In this document: positions 2,853-16,698 of the stretch, piece by piece
Layout of the letters: each line of letters starts with the position of its first letter
Position numbering within the stretch: the stretch's first letter is position 1
The notes under the pieces: model-generated
What the model was told of the DNA's origin: nothing
The model's database searches: none
Seen by the model: only the letters and a program-made list of their open reading frames with translations
Source of the DNA: a virus
Virus record (IMG/VR): IMGVR_UViG_3300025853_000585
Location: 1 to 25,493 of that record
Direction: 5' to 3' (one strand)
DNA: 25,493 bases
Made by a program: the position numbers and the translations under genes

Positions 2853-4844
2853 ATGGCATATTTTAAACTTATTACCTTTGGAGGCAAAGCACCTAGAGTA
2901 TCTCCTAGGCTTCTAGCAGATAATCTTGCGCAGACCGCAACCGACGTAAATTTAGAAAGTGGGCGTCTTGTACCTGTAAAAGACAATTCCACAGTAGATC
3001 CCTCTAATGGGGTTTCTACGCTTGCCAATACTACTAAGCAAACTATATTTAAATACACTGACAGCCCAGAACGTTGGCTGCAGTTTGATGAAGATGTAGA
3101 TGTCGTGCGAGGGCCCATAGCTGGAGATACGAACGACACGATATACTGGTCGGGGCAGTCTTTTCCTAGAATGGGCAGAAGTGATATTATCCTAGGCAGT
3201 GCGCCCTACCCCGATGCTTTTTATAGACTAGGCATACCAGCACCGACAGCTGCTCCTACAGTAGCGATCGCAGCACCAACACCAATAGATGCAACCATAA
3301 CAACCACTAGTGGATCTGGTGTTATAACGGTGACTACTGCAAGTGTTCACGGGGCAGCAGTTGGTGATATTATGACGCTTGTTGGTTTTGGTACTACAAA
3401 TGGGCTAACAGCTGACGAAATTAATGGTGATTTCAAAATTGTTTCTGTTCCTAGCACTACAACACTGACAGTTGCAACCAGCGGGTCTGCTACAAGTTCA
3501 AGCACATCTAGTTCAGTTAGCAACGGAGCATCTTTTAATGGCCCATCCGATGCTGATTTAGATTTCGAAACATCTTATGTTTATACCTTTGTGTCTGCTT
3601 ATGGTGAAGAAGGGCCACCTTCTGCTGCTTCTACTGTTGTAACCACCGATGATAATCAAAAAATCAATCTTAGTAATTTAGAAACTAGTCATTCAAACTC
3701 AAACATTAATCTTCTTAAAAAACGTATATACAGATCTAACACTGGTTCAAACACTACGCAGTTTCAGTTCGTTGCAGAGCTTGCACTGTCAGCCACAACA
3801 TACACGGATACTTCTAAAAACAGCGAGTTAGCTGAGGTTATACCCTCTACTACATGGATTGCACCGCCAGACGATGATACCTCTTTGTATCCAGATGGGC
3901 CCATGAAAGGGTTGTGTGCGTTGCCAGGCGGAGTGTTTGCTGGTTTTACTGGTAAACGTATATGTTTTAGTGAACCTTTTCTACCCCACGCTTGGCCTGC
4001 AAACTATAGGCTTGCTATAGAAGAAGAGATAGTCGGCATGAAAGTAGTATCAAACGGTATTTTAGTTACAACAAAAAGCGTGCCATACCTAGTCACAGGA
4101 TCTGGGCCTGACACGATGACAGCAATACGTATTGAAAGTTCGCAAGCTAACCTAAACAAAAGATCAATAGTCGACATGGGGCCCTTCGTTATATATGCAA
4201 GTCCGGACGGATTGATCGCAGCAGAGGGTACAACTGTACGGAACTTAACAGAAGGTATTATCACACCTAGTCAATGGCAAGCTAACTATTACCCCGCAAC
4301 AATCACTGGCTTTTTATGGGAACAAAGGTACGTAGGTTTTTATAGTACAGGCAGTGGCTACGGCGGTTTTATATTTGATCCAAGAGTTGGTGACGGCACA
4401 AGTTTTGTAGATCTTGATGCGGGTGGGCTTATACGTGGCGGACATACAGATCCGGACGACAGCCAGTTATATTTAATTATAACTAACACGATTAAAAAGT
4501 TTCAAGGCAGTGGTACTAATCTAACGTTTAATTGGAAATCAAAAGAGTATGTTATGCCAAAACCGATTAGCATGGGTTTTGTAAAAGTAGAAGCAGAGTC
4601 GTATCCCGTAAGAGTCAAAGTATATGGTGATGGGTCTGTTATTTATAACGCATCGATTGCAGCTTCTGGTAGTGTTTTTGCTGTTACCGGAACTACCCCA
4701 AGTTTTAGTTCTACTTCTATACCTGAGCCCATATTAAGACTGCCAGCAAGTGTGCATAAGACCTTTGCCGTAGAAGTAGAAGGTGCCACTATTGTCAACG
4801 AAATTTGCGTTGGAGAGTCTATAGATGAATTAAGGAACATCTAA
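2853..4844 (+). CDS. Large virion tail protein
   Basis: 663 residues. The N-terminal 130 residues form a conserved block (LITFGGKAPRVSPRLL, then a FKY..SPERWLQF stretch). An inserted Thr/Ser-rich beta region at about 145-225 is followed by an Fn3-like module at about 236-266 (ETSYVYTFVSAYGEEGPPS). The C-terminal 330 residues contain LCALPGGVFAGFTGKRICFSEP and a repeated strand pattern suggesting a beta-propeller or nozzle-like fold. I know similar proteins from marine phages as virion structural or tail proteins, but the exact position in the tail is uncertain. Its stop overlaps the next start (TAATG). The start has only a weak purine stretch upstream. Confidence 0.65.
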   Translation: MAYFKLITFGGKAPRVSPRLLADNLAQTATDVNLESGRLVPVKDNSTVDPSNGVSTLANTTKQTIFKYTDSPERWLQFDEDVDVVRGPIAGDTNDTIYWSGQSFPRMGRSDIILGSAPYPDAFYRLGIPAPTAAPTVAIAAPTPIDATITTTSGSGVITVTTASVHGAAVGDIMTLVGFGTTNGLTADEINGDFKIVSVPSTTTLTVATSGSATSSSTSSSVSNGASFNGPSDADLDFETSYVYTFVSAYGEEGPPSAASTVVTTDDNQKINLSNLETSHSNSNINLLKKRIYRSNTGSNTTQFQFVAELALSATTYTDTSKNSELAEVIPSTTWIAPPDDDTSLYPDGPMKGLCALPGGVFAGFTGKRICFSEPFLPHAWPANYRLAIEEEIVGMKVVSNGILVTTKSVPYLVTGSGPDTMTAIRIESSQANLNKRSIVDMGPFVIYASPDGLIAAEGTTVRNLTEGIITPSQWQANYYPATITGFLWEQRYVGFYSTGSGYGGFIFDPRVGDGTSFVDLDAGGLIRGGHTDPDDSQLYLIITNTIKKFQGSGTNLTFNWKSKEYVMPKPISMGFVKVEAESYPVRVKVYGDGSVIYNASIAASGSVFAVTGTTPSFSSTSIPEPILRLPASVHKTFAVEVEGATIVNEICVGESIDELRNI

Positions 4845-7441: not shown

Positions 7442-7658
7442 CAAAAAAATATTACGATGGATCGCGAGTCTTTTTGTACAGCATTACCAAGTTCGAGTAT
7501 CGTTTAACAAAGAGTACGGAGATTCAGACGATAAAGTCTACATAAGCAAAAAAATACTTGTGCAAAAAGAAAACCATCTGAAGTTTCGTGATCTTGATAA
7601 CAAGACTATTGAATATAGAAGTGCAGGTGGTTTGAATTACATTATTGAGGACCTGTAA
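7428..7658 (+). CDS. Unknown small protein
   Basis: 76 residues: a short hydrophobic/basic N-terminus (CKKILRWIASLFVQHYQ) and a beta-rich remainder (VRVSFNKEYGDSDDKVYISK). No known motif. The only ATG in this frame, 7428, lies before rather than after the AAGGAG at 7431-7436, so the true initiation mode is unclear. Its stop overlaps the i-spanin start (TAATG). Neighbours suggest membership of the lysis cassette, without direct evidence. Confidence 0.5.
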   Translation: MKESCKKILRWIASLFVQHYQVRVSFNKEYGDSDDKVYISKKILVQKENHLKFRDLDNKTIEYRSAGGLNYIIEDL

Positions 7659-8053
7659 TGCAACAGATATCTATAGGAATTATATTAATGTTAGGTTTTG
7701 CAAGCTATTATTTCTATAGCCAAAACCAAATACTTACTGCAAACAATGCGGCACTAGAAAGCGCGGTTGCCACACAAGAAGAAACAATAACTTCTTTGCA
7801 AAATGATTTTGCTTTACAAACTACAGAATTACAAAACATGACTGTAAAAAGCCAAGCAGCCCAGAGAGAATTGAATAGATATTCAGAATTTATTAAAAAT
7901 TACGAACTGAGTGACAAGATTATAGGTGACCCAGTTGAAATGCAAAGGAAGATAAACAATGGTACAAAACATATCATGGAAGACATTGAGAACATCAGCT
8001 CTGATATTGATGGTCTTGATGATGGCCTGCAGTTGCAGTCTACTTCCGACTAG
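7658..8053 (+). CDS. Inner-membrane spanin subunit (i-spanin, Rz-like)
   Basis: 131 residues with one N-terminal transmembrane segment at about 4-22 (ISIGIILMLGFASYYFY) and a long periplasmic coiled coil from about 25 to 125 rich in Gln, Asn and Glu (ALESAVATQEETITSLQNDF). This is the Rz topology: N-in, C-out type II protein that reaches across the periplasm to an outer-membrane lipoprotein and fuses the membranes at lysis. The downstream gene begins inside this one in another frame and encodes a lipoprotein, as in Rz/Rz1 pairs. Sequence identity to lambda Rz is not visible, so the call rests on topology and context. Confidence 0.72.
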   Translation: MQQISIGIILMLGFASYYFYSQNQILTANNAALESAVATQEETITSLQNDFALQTTELQNMTVKSQAAQRELNRYSEFIKNYELSDKIIGDPVEMQRKINNGTKHIMEDIENISSDIDGLDDGLQLQSTSD

Positions 8054-8342
8054 AGAAATACAAGTATCTGCTAAACCTATCGACAGGCAGATAGTACAGC
8101 CGGTTATGCCTAGAGAAATAGATCTCAAGCAGGTTAAATGGCTTACGATTACCCCAGAAAACTTTGAGGAACAGTTTGCTCTTATCGAGGACCAAGAGGG
8201 CGAACTTGTTTTTTTAGCTATGACCGTACCAGATTACGAGACCATGGCCTACAACATGCAGGAAATTAAAAGATATATAACAGAACTAAAAGATGTAGTT
8301 GTGTATTATAGAAAAGTAACAGTTATTCAAAAAGAAGAATAA
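7959..8342 (+). CDS. Outer-membrane spanin lipoprotein (o-spanin, Rz1-like)
   Basis: 127 residues. A signal peptide with hydrophobic core SALILMVLMMACSCS carries a lipobox-like cysteine (Cys24 or Cys26), followed by a Pro-containing stretch (VSAKPIDRQIVQPVMPREI) and a folded C-terminal domain with VPDYETMAYNMQEIKRYI. The start at 7959 is supported by AGGAAG eight bases upstream, inside the preceding i-spanin gene, and the two overlap by 95 bases in different frames. It would sit in the inner leaflet of the outer membrane and bind the i-spanin. It is longer than lambda Rz1, but larger o-spanins are known. Confidence 0.7.
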   Translation: MVQNISWKTLRTSALILMVLMMACSCSLLPTREIQVSAKPIDRQIVQPVMPREIDLKQVKWLTITPENFEEQFALIEDQEGELVFLAMTVPDYETMAYNMQEIKRYITELKDVVVYYRKVTVIQKEE

Positions 8343-8566: not shown

Positions 8567-8950
8567 ATGGCCAAAAAAGCGCCAGATGCTTTTGTTTACA
8601 AAGCAACTTTAGAGCGAATTGTCGATGGAGACACTTTTGACTGTTCGCTCGACCTTGGGTTTGATGTCAAGCTACACAAGCAAAGAGTGCGGTTAGCAGG
8701 CATAGATACTCCTGAATCCAGAACACGAGACCTCGCAGAAAAAAAACTAGGCCTTGAAGCCAAAGAAAGATTAAAAGAATTGTGCGTAGGTAGCATAAAA
8801 ATCAAATCCCTAGGCAAGGGTAAATACGGCAGAATACTTGGCATACCTTATACAGAAGATGGTAAAGACATTTGTCAAATATTAATAGACGAAGGTCATG
8901 CAGTGGAGTACCACGGCGGGACTAAAACAAAAATATGGGGTGATTACTAA
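8567..8950 (+). CDS. Staphylococcal nuclease-like (SNase/TNase) endonuclease
   Basis: 127 residues, one OB-fold SNase domain. Catalytic residues aligned to S. aureus nuclease are all present: Asp22 in VDGDTF (D21), Arg42 in RVRLAGIDTPE (R35), Asp47/Thr48 (D40/T41), Glu50 (E43) and Arg89 in KYGRILG (R87). It would be a calcium-dependent phosphodiesterase acting on DNA or RNA. There is no signal peptide, so it acts in the cytoplasm, perhaps on host nucleic acid late in infection or as a virion component. AAAGGAG precedes the start and the stop overlaps the next ATG (TAATG). Confidence 0.9.
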   Translation: MAKKAPDAFVYKATLERIVDGDTFDCSLDLGFDVKLHKQRVRLAGIDTPESRTRDLAEKKLGLEAKERLKELCVGSIKIKSLGKGKYGRILGIPYTEDGKDICQILIDEGHAVEYHGGTKTKIWGDY

Positions 8951-9336
8951 TGAATGACGGACACGGAAGATTTCAGGGGGATATGGATCGTAATGAAGTT
9001 GAAATGGACCTTAATAAGTTCATGGCAATGGTAGAAGAAATAGGCCAACTTAAAGATAAAATTAGAGACCTAGAAGATGAAACAACTAGAAACCCACACC
9101 AAAAATGGATTTTTTTAGCACAAGCAGTTGATTCTTGGCGCATCTTTCCAAGAGCATTTTTAAGTGTATATATGTATTTACTTTATTTTACAACTTTTTG
9201 GTTTATGGATTTAGCAGAACCTACGTTTGAACAAAGTGGTCTTATATCAATAGTAGTTGGTGCGGGTGCAGCTTGGTTTGGTTTGTACGCAGGAACATCA
9301 GGTTCCAGCAAGTCATTTAAAGGCGAGGATAAATGA
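8950..9336 (+). CDS. Two-TM membrane protein, candidate holin
   Basis: 128 residues. Residues 15-50 are a charged helix (MAMVEEIGQLKDKIRDLEDE), then two transmembrane segments at about 67-87 (FLSVYMYLLYFTTFWFMDL) and 97-115 (GLISIVVGAGAAWFGLYAG), and a short charged tail. Two TM helices plus charged ends and a location just after the spanin/endonuclease genes fit a class II-like holin, which would release the cytoplasmic endolysin. No family signature confirms this. Overlaps both neighbours by 1-4 bases (TAATG, ATGA). Confidence 0.6.
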   Translation: MNDGHGRFQGDMDRNEVEMDLNKFMAMVEEIGQLKDKIRDLEDETTRNPHQKWIFLAQAVDSWRIFPRAFLSVYMYLLYFTTFWFMDLAEPTFEQSGLISIVVGAGAAWFGLYAGTSGSSKSFKGEDK

Positions 9337-10454
9337 AGGACGACGACCAAAGAAAACACGATAACATCATAGTATGGGCAGCATTTATGTTTCTTATAAC
9401 ACTTGTTGCGGGTATATCTATAAATGCTAATGCTCAGTCTAGTCAGCAATCTGGTACAGCTTGTGTCAATGGTTCTCAGTATTGCGAAAACAATAGTTTA
9501 GATACCACCAATACAACAACGACTACCAATACAAATACTAATACTAATACCAACACGAACACCAACACGAACACCAACACGAACAACAATACCAACACGA
9601 ACACGACTACAACGACAGCAACGAACACGAATTCGAATACTAATGTTAATACCAACACGAATAATAATATCAACACATCGACAGCAACTTCGACTTCGAA
9701 CAATACCAACACAAACAATAACGTTAATACTTCGACTTCTAATTCAACAGTGAATTCGACTGTCAATCAAAACGTTAACAATACGAACAATTCAACTTCA
9801 ACGTCGAATAATACAAATACTAACACTAACGTAAATCAATCAACTTCAGATTCAAACGTTACTACAGACAATACCAACACAAACAACAACAACACTAAAT
9901 CTGACAACACGAATAGAAATATTAACGAGTCAAATAGTACCCAAACTATTAATCAAAATGTAAAAAGCGAAGCCCCACCTGCATCTGCAATTGCTCCGTC
10001 CATAATGTCTTATTCACAGGACTTATGTACCACGGGGGTATCGGGTGCTTTCCAAGGGCAAGTGTTTGGTTTGTCGGGTGGTAAAACTATAGTAGATGAA
10101 AACTGCGAACGATTAAAATTATCTAAGTATCTATATGACATGGGCATGAAAGTAGCATCAGTTGCTTTGTTGTGTCAGGACGAAAGAGTATTCAAAGCCA
10201 TGTCAATGGCCGGTACTCCGTGTCCGTACAACGGTAAGATTGGTAAAGAAGCTACTGTAGCATGGGAGGAAAACCCACAAAAAAGGCCTGACAAAGAAGA
10301 TGCAGAAAAAGAATTTATTTCCCAGTGCACGCACGAAGCTAATCCAAACAGAGACAAGATTAATAAAGATGTTGTGGGTTTGGTTAAAAAAACTTACACA
10401 AGAAAGACTAAGACCACCAAACAATGCAGAAACGAATTTTATGCTACGCAGTAG
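9333..10454 (+). CDS. Exported Asn/Thr-repeat protein with Cys-containing C-terminal domain
   Basis: 373 residues. An N-terminal signal or anchor (about 11-32, NIIVWAAFMFLITLVAGISI) ends with ANA, a plausible signal peptidase site. Residues about 58-205 are almost only Asn, Thr and Ser with NTNT repeats, likely an unstructured stalk. Residues about 210-373 form a separate domain with a helical core (CERLKLSKYLYDMGMKVASV) and paired Cys (ALLCQDER, GTPCPYNG). I recall similar C-terminal domains in marine phages, without known function. It starts with ATGA overlap to the holin-like gene and overlaps the next gene by 31 bases. Role may be envelope or virion surface related. Confidence 0.65.
   Translation: MKDDDQRKHDNIIVWAAFMFLITLVAGISINANAQSSQQSGTACVNGSQYCENNSLDTTNTTTTTNTNTNTNTNTNTNTNTNTNNNTNTNTTTTTATNTNSNTNVNTNTNNNINTSTATSTSNNTNTNNNVNTSTSNSTVNSTVNQNVNNTNNSTSTSNNTNTNTNVNQSTSDSNVTTDNTNTNNNNTKSDNTNRNINESNSTQTINQNVKSEAPPASAIAPSIMSYSQDLCTTGVSGAFQGQVFGLSGGKTIVDENCERLKLSKYLYDMGMKVASVALLCQDERVFKAMSMAGTPCPYNGKIGKEATVAWEENPQKRPDKEDAEKEFISQCTHEANPNRDKINKDVVGLVKKTYTRKTKTTKQCRNEFYATQ
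9551..9586 (+). repeat. 12-bp tandem repeat in the Asn/Thr stalk
   Basis: Three adjacent copies of CAACACGAACAC, the last ending AA, encode the NTNT units. Further degenerate copies run to about 9960. The unit is a multiple of three, so gain or loss of copies changes stalk length without breaking the frame. Confidence 0.7.
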
Positions 10455-12670
10455 CTAGTCTGCTATCATTTAGTGTATATGGACAATACACTTACGAATC
10501 AGGACAGGATTTATACCACCTGCAAACAAACGCCAACAACTTTGAAGGTGAGTTAGCATACGAGGTAGTAGATGATGGTATTAGCCCTGCAATTGACCTT
10601 TCTTTTAATTTTACTTTTTACGGCTCTACTTTTACACAAGCGAGGATGGCAACGAATGGATGCCTACATTTTGGTAATAGTGGTAGCTATTGCAATGACT
10701 ATACTCCTGACCCTATTAACGGACAACACACCTATACCATATACCCTTTTTGGACTGACCTAATTAGAGACAACGATTCTCGCATGAAGTCTTGGGGTGA
10801 TAACAGCAAGATGATATTTGGTTGGTACGACATGAGAGAGTACAACAGAGCATCAGACAACAGCTTTGAGATAATACTTTGGAACAATAACTCTTTTGAC
10901 ATACGCTATGGTGCGTTAGATATTATTAACCATGATGTTCTCATAGGTGAGGTTGGCAGTGGCAGCAAAGAAATCTATCAATATTATTACCATGATGAAT
11001 GCAATACAGGCTCAACCAACAGTTCTATCTGTGTAAATACTAACTGGAATAACACAACAATTAACACGACATTAGAGAACGGTGGTTCTTTGTATGGCTC
11101 TGGGTCTGGAAATGGTGTTGACTGTAGTGACCCATTAAATGATTCTAGCTGTAGTGGATACGCAGATGCTTATCTAACCCAACAATGTAATATCACTGAT
11201 CTTTATAGTGAGTCTTGCCCTAACTACTGGGAAGCTTATGATGATCAGCAATGCGCAGATGATCCGCAGTACGCACCGTTTTGCCAAGGCTATAGACAAG
11301 AAGAATCTGTAGCTTTCTTTGACGATACTAACGTAGATTATGGGTTTGTAGATGAGCAAGAACAATTTGCCACTGGCGCTTTTACCGATAGTCACCATGA
11401 CGACAACTTTGGATTTGAAGACCCAATAGAAGTTATAGAGATCTTTGAAGAAGAAATGTTTCCACCTTTTGAAGAGTTTGGAGATAACCCCAACGATTAT
11501 TTTGAAGACCCTTTTGTAGAAGAGTTTGTTGTTTTCTATGACCCAGAGCCTTTACCTTTTGTTGACGCTTTTAACTCTCATCATGATGAGCCTTTTCATC
11601 AAGACGAAGTATTAATAGATGAGTTTATATTTCAAGAAACTTTTTTAGTAGAAGATTACAGTGAACCCGAAACATTTATTGAGTTTAACAGCGTAGAAGA
11701 ATTGGAGGAGTGGTTTGAAGAAGAAACTAATGAACGTTTTGAAGAACGAATTGAAGAAGAACTTGCAGATTTGGATGAACCGGAAGAAGAATTTATTGAA
11801 GAAATCTTCGAAGAAGAAGTTGTAGAAGAAGTTTTTGAAGCAATTGAAGAACGTATTGCAGAAGCAGAAATAGAAGAAGAAAGGATTGAAAGAGAAGAGA
11901 TCATAGAAAAGTTTGAAGAAGTTTTTGAAGAAGAGTTCCAAACTGCAGAAAGAGAAGAAGCTACAGGTAAAAGTTCTATTAGTAGGGATATAGCCTTGCG
12001 TGTTGTTTCTTCTACCATAGCAACTGCAACACAAAGTGTTAGCGGTACAAACGCAGGTAATAGTGTTCATGCTACAGGTAACACCGCAGCTTCTGGTAAC
12101 GCTGTAAGTGGTAGTTCCACAGGAGCTTCTTCTGGAAATGCAGGCATAAGTACAACCAGTTCCCCTAGTATGTCAGACCAGTTTGCTTCTGCTACAGTAC
12201 AAACAAACCAGGTTCTAGACATGAGTTCTATGTCCGTGTCCGGGTCTTCTACAAATGATTCCACAGGGTCGACTGATATAAGCACTTCGGTCGTTGTAGC
12301 TAATGTATCTACTAACACAGTACAAGATCAAATAGATACTTCAATAAGCTCTATGGATACATCTTCTGATACAGATACCACAGTGGAAAATTTAATCGCA
12401 CAAAATTTACAGACAGCACAAGAAGAAGTAGAAGCTCAACAAGAAGAAACAGGAGAGTATGGTTCGGAAGACACAATTATTGCGTACATGGGTTTTGTCC
12501 CAGGCTTTAACACGTATCAAACTGTTGTAATGGCCGACCAGGACCAATGGTATACACCTAAGACTATTTATACTGAAACCATGCCAGATAACATAAACGC
12601 ATTTTATGGGCTTGCAGGTAGTAATATAAGTAAAATGAACGATATAATAAGTTTACAACCACCTTTATAG
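10424..12670 (+). CDS. Large secreted NIDO-like, Cys-repeat and acidic protein
   Basis: 748 residues with a clear signal peptide (QKRILCYAVASLLSFSVYG, cleavage near 20). Residues about 45-190 resemble a NIDO extracellular domain (FTFYGSTF, MATNGCLHFG, YPFWTDLI). Residues 234-287 hold six Cys at spacing 9, 12, 10, 12, 10 with a repeated GY/NY..AY...QQC pattern. Residues about 300-545 are extremely acidic, with EEE-rich helices that may form a coiled coil. Residues about 550-690 are Ser/Thr/Gly rich, and the last 60 residues are a compact domain (WYTPKTIYTETMPDNINAFY). Overall architecture is that of a surface or extracellular adhesive protein. Its role for the phage is unknown; virion fibre or modification of the infected cell surface are both possible. 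Confidence 0.65.
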   Translation: MQKRILCYAVASLLSFSVYGQYTYESGQDLYHLQTNANNFEGELAYEVVDDGISPAIDLSFNFTFYGSTFTQARMATNGCLHFGNSGSYCNDYTPDPINGQHTYTIYPFWTDLIRDNDSRMKSWGDNSKMIFGWYDMREYNRASDNSFEIILWNNNSFDIRYGALDIINHDVLIGEVGSGSKEIYQYYYHDECNTGSTNSSICVNTNWNNTTINTTLENGGSLYGSGSGNGVDCSDPLNDSSCSGYADAYLTQQCNITDLYSESCPNYWEAYDDQQCADDPQYAPFCQGYRQEESVAFFDDTNVDYGFVDEQEQFATGAFTDSHHDDNFGFEDPIEVIEIFEEEMFPPFEEFGDNPNDYFEDPFVEEFVVFYDPEPLPFVDAFNSHHDEPFHQDEVLIDEFIFQETFLVEDYSEPETFIEFNSVEELEEWFEEETNERFEERIEEELADLDEPEEEFIEEIFEEEVVEEVFEAIEERIAEAEIEEERIEREEIIEKFEEVFEEEFQTAEREEATGKSSISRDIALRVVSSTIATATQSVSGTNAGNSVHATGNTAASGNAVSGSSTGASSGNAGISTTSSPSMSDQFASATVQTNQVLDMSSMSVSGSSTNDSTGSTDISTSVVVANVSTNTVQDQIDTSISSMDTSSDTDTTVENLIAQNLQTAQEEVEAQQEETGEYGSEDTIIAYMGFVPGFNTYQTVVMADQDQWYTPKTIYTETMPDNINAFYGLAGSNISKMNDIISLQPPL

Positions 12671-12680
12671 GAGAATCACC

Positions 12681-13028
12681 ATGGATTGGTTACAAAGTAA
12701 AACAACACAAGTAATAGCTTTAGTGGGTATTGTTTCAACTCTTGCAGGGTTTGGTTACACAGGGGCTACCTATGTTAACCGCATAACAAACTTAGAAGCT
12801 AAAATTGGCGGCATAAGCGAAGCAGAAGATAATGTGCAAGTTATTGAAGAACGTTTTGCAGCAATAGAAACATCTGTACAATTTTTAGAAAAAGAAATAG
12901 ATAAAATTGAAATTCCCGATGTAACAGACATCAAAACAGATATAGCTACAGTGAAGGCTGACTTAATAAGTTTAGATAAACGTATAGAGGAGATAAAAGA
13001 TGACAATAAGAATCCTCTTGGTGGCTAG
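12681..13028 (+). CDS. Single-TM coiled-coil protein
   Basis: 115 residues: an N-terminal transmembrane segment at about 10-32 (VIALVGIVSTLAGFGYTGATYV), then a coiled coil to the end (VIEERFAAIETSVQFLEKEI). Topology is like an i-spanin or a membrane tether, with the coil outside or inside depending on insertion. GGAG precedes the start by eight bases. It overlaps the next gene, a lipoprotein, by 29 bases in a different frame. This TM/coil plus overlapping lipoprotein pair repeats the spanin arrangement seen at 7658-8342. Confidence 0.6.
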   Translation: MDWLQSKTTQVIALVGIVSTLAGFGYTGATYVNRITNLEAKIGGISEAEDNVQVIEERFAAIETSVQFLEKEIDKIEIPDVTDIKTDIATVKADLISLDKRIEEIKDDNKNPLGG

Positions 13029-13203
13029 TATATTTTTAATCGGCTGTTCAACGCAATCAAAATTCATACCAATACCAGAAGACTCTAAGTTAGAGTGGTC
13101 TGATTCTTATGACCCCGACCAATGGAGAGAACAGTATAAAAAATGTCAGGCATTCTTGTATGAAGATAACGACGCTTGGCGTTGGTGTATGGATACTGTT
13201 TAG
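13000..13203 (+). CDS. Small lipoprotein
   Basis: 67 residues. Signal peptide MTIRILLVASIFLIGC has a canonical lipobox LIGC with Cys16 as the lipidation site, followed by STQSKFIPIPEDSKLEW and a short region with two further Cys near the C-terminus (KKCQAF, RWCMDTV). A good ribosome binding site (GAGGAG) lies inside the preceding coiled-coil gene. It may be the outer-membrane partner of that protein. It is Pro-poor compared with lambda Rz1, so spanin identity is uncertain. Confidence 0.65.
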   Translation: MTIRILLVASIFLIGCSTQSKFIPIPEDSKLEWSDSYDPDQWREQYKKCQAFLYEDNDAWRWCMDTV

Positions 13204-15317: not shown

Positions 15318-16656
15318 GTCCTACCTCCTGTAATATGTGCAATAGATTTTCCATTCGCCCAAGCTTAGTATTAAGCTTTTTATACACTTCGGGCTCCCAA
15401 GTGTTTCGCGCTTGTATAAGTATAGTTTCGGTCTTTTGTGTTTGACCTGATCTATGTATACGTTGGTTGAATTGTTGAAAGTGTTCAGCATTGTATGTAG
15501 GTGAACACCATATAACTGTGTTAGCTTTAGTAAGAGTTAACCCATGACTTGCTGATTGTGGGTGACACAATAACATTTTAATATGGCCAGCTTGGAATCG
15601 TGCGACTATGTCTTTTCTCTTCTCAGCTTTGACTGTACCATCAATAACTTCATAGGTTACACCTTGTTTTTCTGCGAGTTCAATTAACGCATTGCGTTCG
15701 TGTCGCCAGTTGAATGCTACCAGACAGTGTGCACGTTGTTCTACAAGGGTCATAACTATGTCATAACGTTCTTGATGGATAAACTGCACCAACTTGTCTT
15801 CATCATATACTGCGCCTGTAACTAGCTGCAGCAGCTTCTTGACACGAGCTCCTGCATGAACAGCATTAACGGTACCTGTCTTAGTGTATAAAACAGAATC
15901 GTTAGCAAGGAGATTATATTTTTGCTGTATCTGTTTAGACAAGTTAGTGTTTATCGTACGTGTTATGTTGTCTGGTAGATCCATACATTCGGACAACGCA
16001 TAACGTATAGTTATATCTCGCAGTCGAATAGCAACTGCATCTTCAGCATCAGGTTTGTCTATCCATTCATTGGCAAAGCCATTGAACTTAGGTGTACATA
16101 CTTGAGACCTGAATTGAAAGAATCTAGCTCCTAGTCGTTTGCCGTCGTCGACTAACAAAGTTGGATGCCAAATATCTAAAATAGTATTACTGTTAGGAGT
16201 GCCAGACATGACAATCCTGTTAGTAAAGTGGTGGATAATATCTTTGATGTTTTTACTACGTTTAGCTGTACGATTTTTAAAAGCAGTAAACTCATCAATA
16301 ACAATAGTATCAAACTGTTTACAGTAACGTGTGTTTTTACGTAAAAAGTTAACAGCTTCAAAGTTAGTAATAACCATATCTAAATTATTTTCTTTAAATA
16401 CTTTTTCTCGGTTTTTAGCGTAAGCAACCCCATACTTTATATTGGGTTGGAACTTTTTAATGTCTTCGCCCCATGCTGCTTCTAATATAGAAAGAGGTGC
16501 TAAGACAAGTGTACGTCCCCCGATGGCTGCATGTGCGTCAAGCACGGCGCGTGTTTTACCAGTGCCTGGGTCCGAGGTAATCATACATTTTGGATTTGCT
16601 ACTATGAAATCAGTAGTCTTTTTTTGGTGGTCGTAAGCCACAGGTATATCGTTCAT
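15298..16656 (-). CDS. SNF2/DEAD-like superfamily II helicase
   Basis: 452 residues. Motif I SDPGTGKT (about 28-35), Ia LVLAPLSIL, II IDEFTAFKN, III MSGTPNSN, V ASHGLTLTKANTVIW and VI FNQRIHRSGQTQKT are in order, typical of the compact SNF2-like translocases of phages. Motif II reads DEFT, a tolerated variant of DExx. The enzyme would use ATP to translocate on duplex DNA during replication or recombination. It is the usual helicase partner of some viral family-A polymerases. The start at 16656 lies directly after the heptad-repeat leader, with AAGGAG eight bases upstream. Confidence 0.9.
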   Translation of the reverse strand: MNDIPVAYDHQKKTTDFIVANPKCMITSDPGTGKTRAVLDAHAAIGGRTLVLAPLSILEAAWGEDIKKFQPNIKYGVAYAKNREKVFKENNLDMVITNFEAVNFLRKNTRYCKQFDTIVIDEFTAFKNRTAKRSKNIKDIIHHFTNRIVMSGTPNSNTILDIWHPTLLVDDGKRLGARFFQFRSQVCTPKFNGFANEWIDKPDAEDAVAIRLRDITIRYALSECMDLPDNITRTINTNLSKQIQQKYNLLANDSVLYTKTGTVNAVHAGARVKKLLQLVTGAVYDEDKLVQFIHQERYDIVMTLVEQRAHCLVAFNWRHERNALIELAEKQGVTYEVIDGTVKAEKRKDIVARFQAGHIKMLLCHPQSASHGLTLTKANTVIWCSPTYNAEHFQQFNQRIHRSGQTQKTETILIQARNTWEPEVYKKLNTKLGRMENLLHILQEVGHGKETK

Positions 16657-16698
16657 CGTTACTCCTTAATCGTTAATCGTTATTTGTTAATCGTTAAT
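16657..16698 (-). repeat. Heptad tandem-repeat leader of the helicase gene
   Basis: Read on the minus strand the 42 bases before the start are six 7-base units: ATTAACG, ATTAACA, AATAACG, ATTAACG, ATTAAGG, AGTAACG. The periodicity continues into the gene as ATGAACG. The Shine-Dalgarno AAGGAG spans the last two units. Same unit family as 14910-14944. Confidence 0.8.

Follow-up and report, generated by a model that had tools for sequence, protein, structure and literature searches.

Three linked phage genes, A, B and C, conserved in mostly marine viruses and possibly encoding a non-virion complex of the infected-cell envelope

The virus record analyzed here, a stretch of 25,493 bases with a GC content of 40% to which we refer as the window, contains a run of genes for proteins that look exported or membrane-bound, and it raises the question of which of these genes belong together and what they might do for a phage. 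The plus strand carries tail genes, a lysozyme-like gene, a spanin pair, a thermonuclease-like gene and a holin-like gene, and the minus strand carries what we take, on our own reading of their functions, to be replication genes. The virus has no close relative among cultured phages, with the best identity of its DNA polymerase being 35.6%, to Pseudomonas phage KPP25, and with a tail protein being 32-33% identical to those of Vibrio, Aeromonas and Escherichia phages. A staphylococcal-nuclease-like gene is located at 8567-8950 (Pfam SNase, 1e-13), and genes of this type are found near the cassette in many relatives, in variable order. At 16648-16698, mostly between two minus-strand genes, the 7-base unit ATCGTTA occurs in 7.3 tandem copies.

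A preliminary description had proposed a cassette of four consecutive, overlapping genes, which we call A to D. All four open reading frames are present on one strand, with A and B overlapping by 31 nt and C and D by 29 nt, but B and C are separated by 10 nt and do not overlap. The features of the cassette and of its surroundings are as follows.

7658-8053 and 7959-8342, plus strand: Rz/Rz1 spanin pair, recognisable in the window
8950..9336, plus strand: holin-like membrane protein (PHROG 10198, listed without function), directly 5′ of A; a neighbour, not core
9333..10454, plus strand: gene A, 373 aa, predicted exported protein with an Asn/Thr stalk and a Cys core (PHROG 20531)
9333..9437, plus strand: signal-peptide-like segment of A, residues 1-35 (sequence and heuristic; helix with pLDDT 76-89 at residues 1-30)
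9486..9965, plus strand: Asn/Thr stalk of A, residues 52-211 (period-2 Asn alternation, conserved length)
9996..10292, plus strand: conserved Cys core of A, residues 222-320
10424..12670, plus strand: gene B, 748 aa, predicted exported, adhesin-like protein
10424..10483, plus strand: signal-peptide-like segment of B, residues 1-20 (sequence and heuristic)
10487..10993, plus strand: beta-rich N-terminal domain of B, residues 22-190 (match to the RemA N-terminus; strands where the model has moderate confidence)
11123..11290, plus strand: Cys repeats of B, residues 234-289 (sequence)
11321..11962, plus strand: acidic, Glu/Phe-rich, partly helical region of B, residues 300-513 (sequence and model)
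12389..12667, plus strand: C-terminal region of B conserved in the window clade, residues 656-748
12681..13028, plus strand: gene C, 115 aa, with an N-terminal membrane segment, a coiled coil and a C-terminal NPLGG
13011..13025, plus strand: NPL tail of C, residues 111-115
13000..13203, plus strand: gene D, 67 aa, small lipoprotein (lipobox LIGC), accessory in the window clade

Across related loci, the conserved unit is the three genes A, B and C, with the lipoprotein D being an accessory of the window clade. We recognized C by a criterion drawn from a few phages, i.e., an N-terminal hydrophobic segment together with a C-terminal NP[LM] followed by no more than 4 residues, and scored loci that had been fetched with A or B queries, that contained the A core and that extended more than 3.5 kb downstream. 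A lack of co-occurrence of the genes had been named in the preliminary description as one ground for refuting its proposal, and this ground falls away: all 167 of the A-core viral loci scored contain C within 5 kb on the same strand, with a long B, mostly signal-peptide-bearing, between A and C; in the control, C-like open reading frames elsewhere numbered 14 of 5,211. Counted by clusters of A identity, these loci being mutually related, A and C co-occur in 23 of 23 clusters at 70% and in 14 of 14 at 60%. The overlap of A and B is 28-31 nt across the window clade, and the spacing between B and C is 20 nt or less in 173 of 185 loci. In HTVC115P and a groundwater phage, the criterion located C behind other genes; an earlier candidate for C in HTVC115P (L083:7836-8198, with the tail NGKAY) was wrong, and the real C is at L083:8541-8969. 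The C gene of roseophage CRP-810 (L089:6162-6584) is annotated as “lysozyme,” a name that looks wrong.

A and B of SAR11-type phages can be separated by one or two small genes. A recurrent pair of small genes, one of ~120-135 aa starting near SENTSVSMPVKN and one of ~71 aa with GEIKEHRIQESMSDCLK, is present between A and B in SAR11-type loci (L111, L142, L163 and similar) and after B in HTVC115P (L083:7836-8403), and this pair is a putative mobile insert into the cassette.

D was correctly described as a lipoprotein, but not as an equal member of the set: of the 61 loci of the window clade, 37 have a lipoprotein after C, compared with just 4 of the 111 others, and D is thus not core. At least 1 of these 37 window-clade lipoproteins is an Rz1 spanin. 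Assignment of D to the EexN entry-exclusion lipoproteins was rejected (E 0.005, 16.7 bits against a curated cutoff of 33). The holin-like gene is likewise not a constant partner, since such a gene lies upstream of A in only 60 of 185 loci, and we dropped the idea of universal holin linkage.

The A-B-C arrangement is widespread. Our search confirmed 367 relatives of B in viral contigs, 80 of which were kept, but none among 50,697 phage records. Phage records are reached with the C-terminal core of A, i.e., those of the Pelagibacter phages HTVC202P, HTVC115P, HTVC033P, HTVC023P and Baldr, the T4-like Mosig, an uncultured Autographiviridae phage, two roseophages and two groundwater phages, and in these records two further genes lie downstream of A, the first usually long and the other small and of the membrane/coiled-coil type. 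The carriers are podoviruses, Autographiviridae and Kyanoviridae, and include a T4-like pelagimyophage and roseophages; those in culture are HTVC033P, HTVC202P, HTVC115P, HTVC023P, Baldr, Mosig, CRP-207 and CRP-810. A-B-C is carried by hundreds of phages, which are mostly from the ocean and belong to several unrelated types. Two short A-core patterns, run once as a narrow scan against 84,980 species genomes, returned six contigs, five from labelled MAGs and one from an uncultured isolate assembly, which we take as putative viral sequence.

Gene A had been described as encoding an exported Asn/Thr stalk protein, and the sequence agrees with this, with an N-terminus that combines a hydrophobic segment with the cleavage motif ANA↓Q, and a stalk in which 115 of 160 residues are Asn or Thr. 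Asn alternates with a period of two along this stalk (mean z +4.6 at lag 2 and -3.4 at lag 1 in 40 orthologues), which suggests beta structure, and we infer that the stalk may be a regular, beta-type element. The AlphaFold model of A is of low confidence (mean pLDDT 47.5), with no confident fold for the stalk, and a fold search using this model returned uncharacterised viral proteins. A matches PHROG 20531, likewise a family listed without function, in the window (E 1.5e-7, over a stretch that is partly low-complexity), in HTVC033P (1.9e-11, over the core) and in Mosig (4e-13), and JJJA_0025 of the N4-like Achromobacter phage JWDelta matches the same family at 512 bits. With a small stated database size, the A core profile reaches EBPR podovirus 1 (7e-14), phiAxp-2 (4e-7) and JWDelta (8.5e-7). 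Members of PHROG 20531 resemble A in having a signal peptide, a low-complexity region and a Cys core, but in JWDelta, phiAxp-2 and EBPR podovirus 1, unlike in the window, the B-C arrangement was not seen after the PHROG 20531 gene. The four-Cys pattern of the A core recurs in a short lipoprotein-like open reading frame that lies directly 5′ of A in two roseophages and a groundwater phage (L088:1731-1937, L089:4573-4815 and L092:889-1098), as if the core domain had two export forms. The Cys-rich core and this lipoprotein-like reading frame of the same Cys pattern would both fit an oxidising compartment.

For gene B, the signal-like N-terminus (motif SVYG↓QY), the Cys repeats and the acidic middle region of the preliminary description are all present, but the NIDO-like assignment was not upheld: the N-terminal domain has no match to Pfam NIDO up to E 10, and we reject NIDO as a formal family for B. 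This domain instead aligns with residues 12-171 of RemA, the gliding adhesin of Flavobacterium johnsoniae (PDB 8gl6 chain D), at E 2.8e-8 over 156 profile positions. The match is confined to the N-terminal domain, out of the 1436 residues of RemA, and B differs from RemA in being phage-encoded, in its acidic middle and in its C-terminus. A match of the Cys repeats to Pfam CPW_WPC fell below the cutoff. The AlphaFold model of B is of low confidence (mean pLDDT 43), and a PDB fold search with it returned nothing.

The N-terminal modules of B differ between clades; for example, B proteins of other clades carry a module with LITNGNFETGN, annotated as carbohydrate-binding in two records, or one with NLLPNAGDG, and the B of roseophages is short and has no acidic middle. 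In hhalign comparisons of the B tails, from which one mixed group (“ctv,” which held members of other groups) was left out, SAR11-type and Mosig-type tails are homologous (probability 99.3%), and the window tail gave probabilities of 3.6-4.6% against these two types and 12% against HTVC115P. Homology between the window-type and SAR11-type tails is therefore not demonstrable, so B is equivalent between those clades by position only, and we assume a common function of B across clades. The B of one relative (L059:184-2490) has extra copies of the Cys-containing unit (SGYAQAYQTQQCDINQLYSESC), so the number of repeats varies between relatives. The B gene of a groundwater phage (L087:6239-7345) is annotated as “transport protein tonB,” which again looks wrong.

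Gene C was rightly described as encoding a transmembrane coiled-coil protein, with one N-terminal hydrophobic segment and a coiled coil after it. Matches of C to NPV P10, XhlA, Rad50, PADLOC CorA/JetC and similar proteins were attributed to coiled-coil composition.

Both A and B look exported on a signal-peptide heuristic, a crude rule other than SignalP that does not tell an anchor from a cleaved signal, which is positive for 228 of 228 A and 203 of 207 B homologues, compared with 189 of 1087 other long open reading frames; it also marks 185 of 186 C proteins. The proposal that the set spans the outer membrane and the outside is not supported, as we found no outer-membrane translocator in the cassette, and B may thus stay in the periplasm.

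A-B-C is under purifying selection. Between the window and four related contigs (L006, L007, L009 and L019), protein identity is 83-90% for A and B and 77-80% for C, and over these three genes dN is 0.06-0.18 and dS a near-saturated 0.84-1.48; the tail protein encoded at 2853-4844 is 25-26% identical on the same contigs. The A stalk is 94-96% identical to those of L006 and L007 (dN 0.03-0.05, dS 0.9-1.5), with at most two gap positions, which argues that it is not a freely drifting repeat.

On this basis, we propose with about even confidence that A-B-C is a module specific to viruses and that its products assemble, apart from the virion, into a complex of the infected-cell envelope, most likely for exclusion or adhesion. 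C would be the inner-membrane anchor, with its coiled coil extending into the periplasm and its conserved NPL tail docking a partner; A would be exported, with a beta-type stalk and with the Cys core as a conserved assembly domain; and B would be exported, with its acidic, partly helical part as a rod that carries an exchangeable head of the adhesin type. Jointly, the three proteins could bring this head into contact with envelope or cell-surface glycans, and the most likely outcome would be that co-infecting phages are blocked or that cell adhesion is changed. It is the adhesin-like, variable head of B that favours binding of envelope or surface glycans, and hence exclusion or adhesion. More tentatively, A-B-C might be a trans-envelope apparatus with a conserved chassis (the A core and the NPL tail of C) and a B head exchanged by recombination, with which unrelated phages would reprogramme the surfaces of infected SAR11, Roseobacter and other cells. 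The main weaknesses of the envelope-complex reading are the missing outer-membrane channel and the frequent lysis neighbours.

Many copies of the cassette adjoin lysis genes or terminase, in late-gene surroundings, and A-B-C could instead be a periplasmic accessory of the lysis phase, working alongside holin, endolysin and spanins to help breach the envelope or to set the time at which it is breached, which we consider rather unlikely. Spanin or lysozyme genes (by BLAST) lie within 3 kb in 15 of the 21 window-clade loci with enough flank, the holin-like genes counted above lie upstream of A, that of Mosig being GTA_holin_3TM, and genes for a lysozyme, an amidase or a peptidase are close by in HTVC033P and HTVC023P. 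However, the window already contains a lysozyme, spanins and a holin-like gene, the cassette precedes terminase in HTVC202P and Baldr, and an exchangeable adhesin-like head has no obvious role in lysis. It is less probable still that A and B join the virion, e.g., as fibres that are exported and then attach to particles while the cell lyses or afterwards. Our search of the open-access literature turned up no virion proteome of a carrier. The adhesin-like head of B, the fibre-like stalk of A and the position of the cassette after the tail genes in the window would agree with a place in the virion, but the N-termini of A and B are signal-peptide-like and C is a membrane protein. In addition, A relatives lie outside the structural genes in two non-marine phages, among relatives of N4 gp22, gp24 and gp25 in JWDelta and in a minus-strand cluster in phiAxp-2, which fits a non-virion role. 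We reject as very improbable that C and D form a second two-component spanin with A and B as mere neighbours, since, despite a topology and a 29-nt overlap that resemble such spanins, a separate Rz/Rz1 pair is recognisable at 7658-8342, 107 of 111 non-window loci lack a lipoprotein after C, and the linkage of C to A is constant.

The nearest published analogue of A-B-C is the pelagiphage curli, or type VIII secretion, operon, which is made of other proteins. This operon is an exported-protein module carried by phages of a host without it, is common to podoviruses and myoviruses of SAR11, includes a CsgG pore and CsgF, with proposed CsgA/B fibres, and has a debated role in aggregation, exclusion, uptake or lysis timing (PMC7029224, PMC9599517, PMC9004378). 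A-B-C is similar in being a multigene exported module found across phage families, but A to D have no Pfam or NCBIfam match to CsgG or CsgF, and we therefore reject its membership in curli. A second comparison is with superinfection-exclusion proteins such as Llp of T5 and Cor of phi80, which are phage-encoded and act in the infected-cell envelope, outside the virion; these are single small proteins, whereas A-B-C is three genes including a large adhesin-like component, and no sequence match to them was found in Pfam. We found no published description of A-B-C in the open-access literature, and the module seems to be undescribed.

Few biological entities in the sea are as abundant as SAR11 and its phages, and the majority of the genes of these phages are, to our knowledge, without a known function. 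The linkage of A, B and C and the strong protein-level constraint on them in unrelated phages point to a shared, as yet unnamed step of infection, which is directly testable because cultured carriers exist. A-B-C would be a second exported module in the debate opened by phage-encoded curli.
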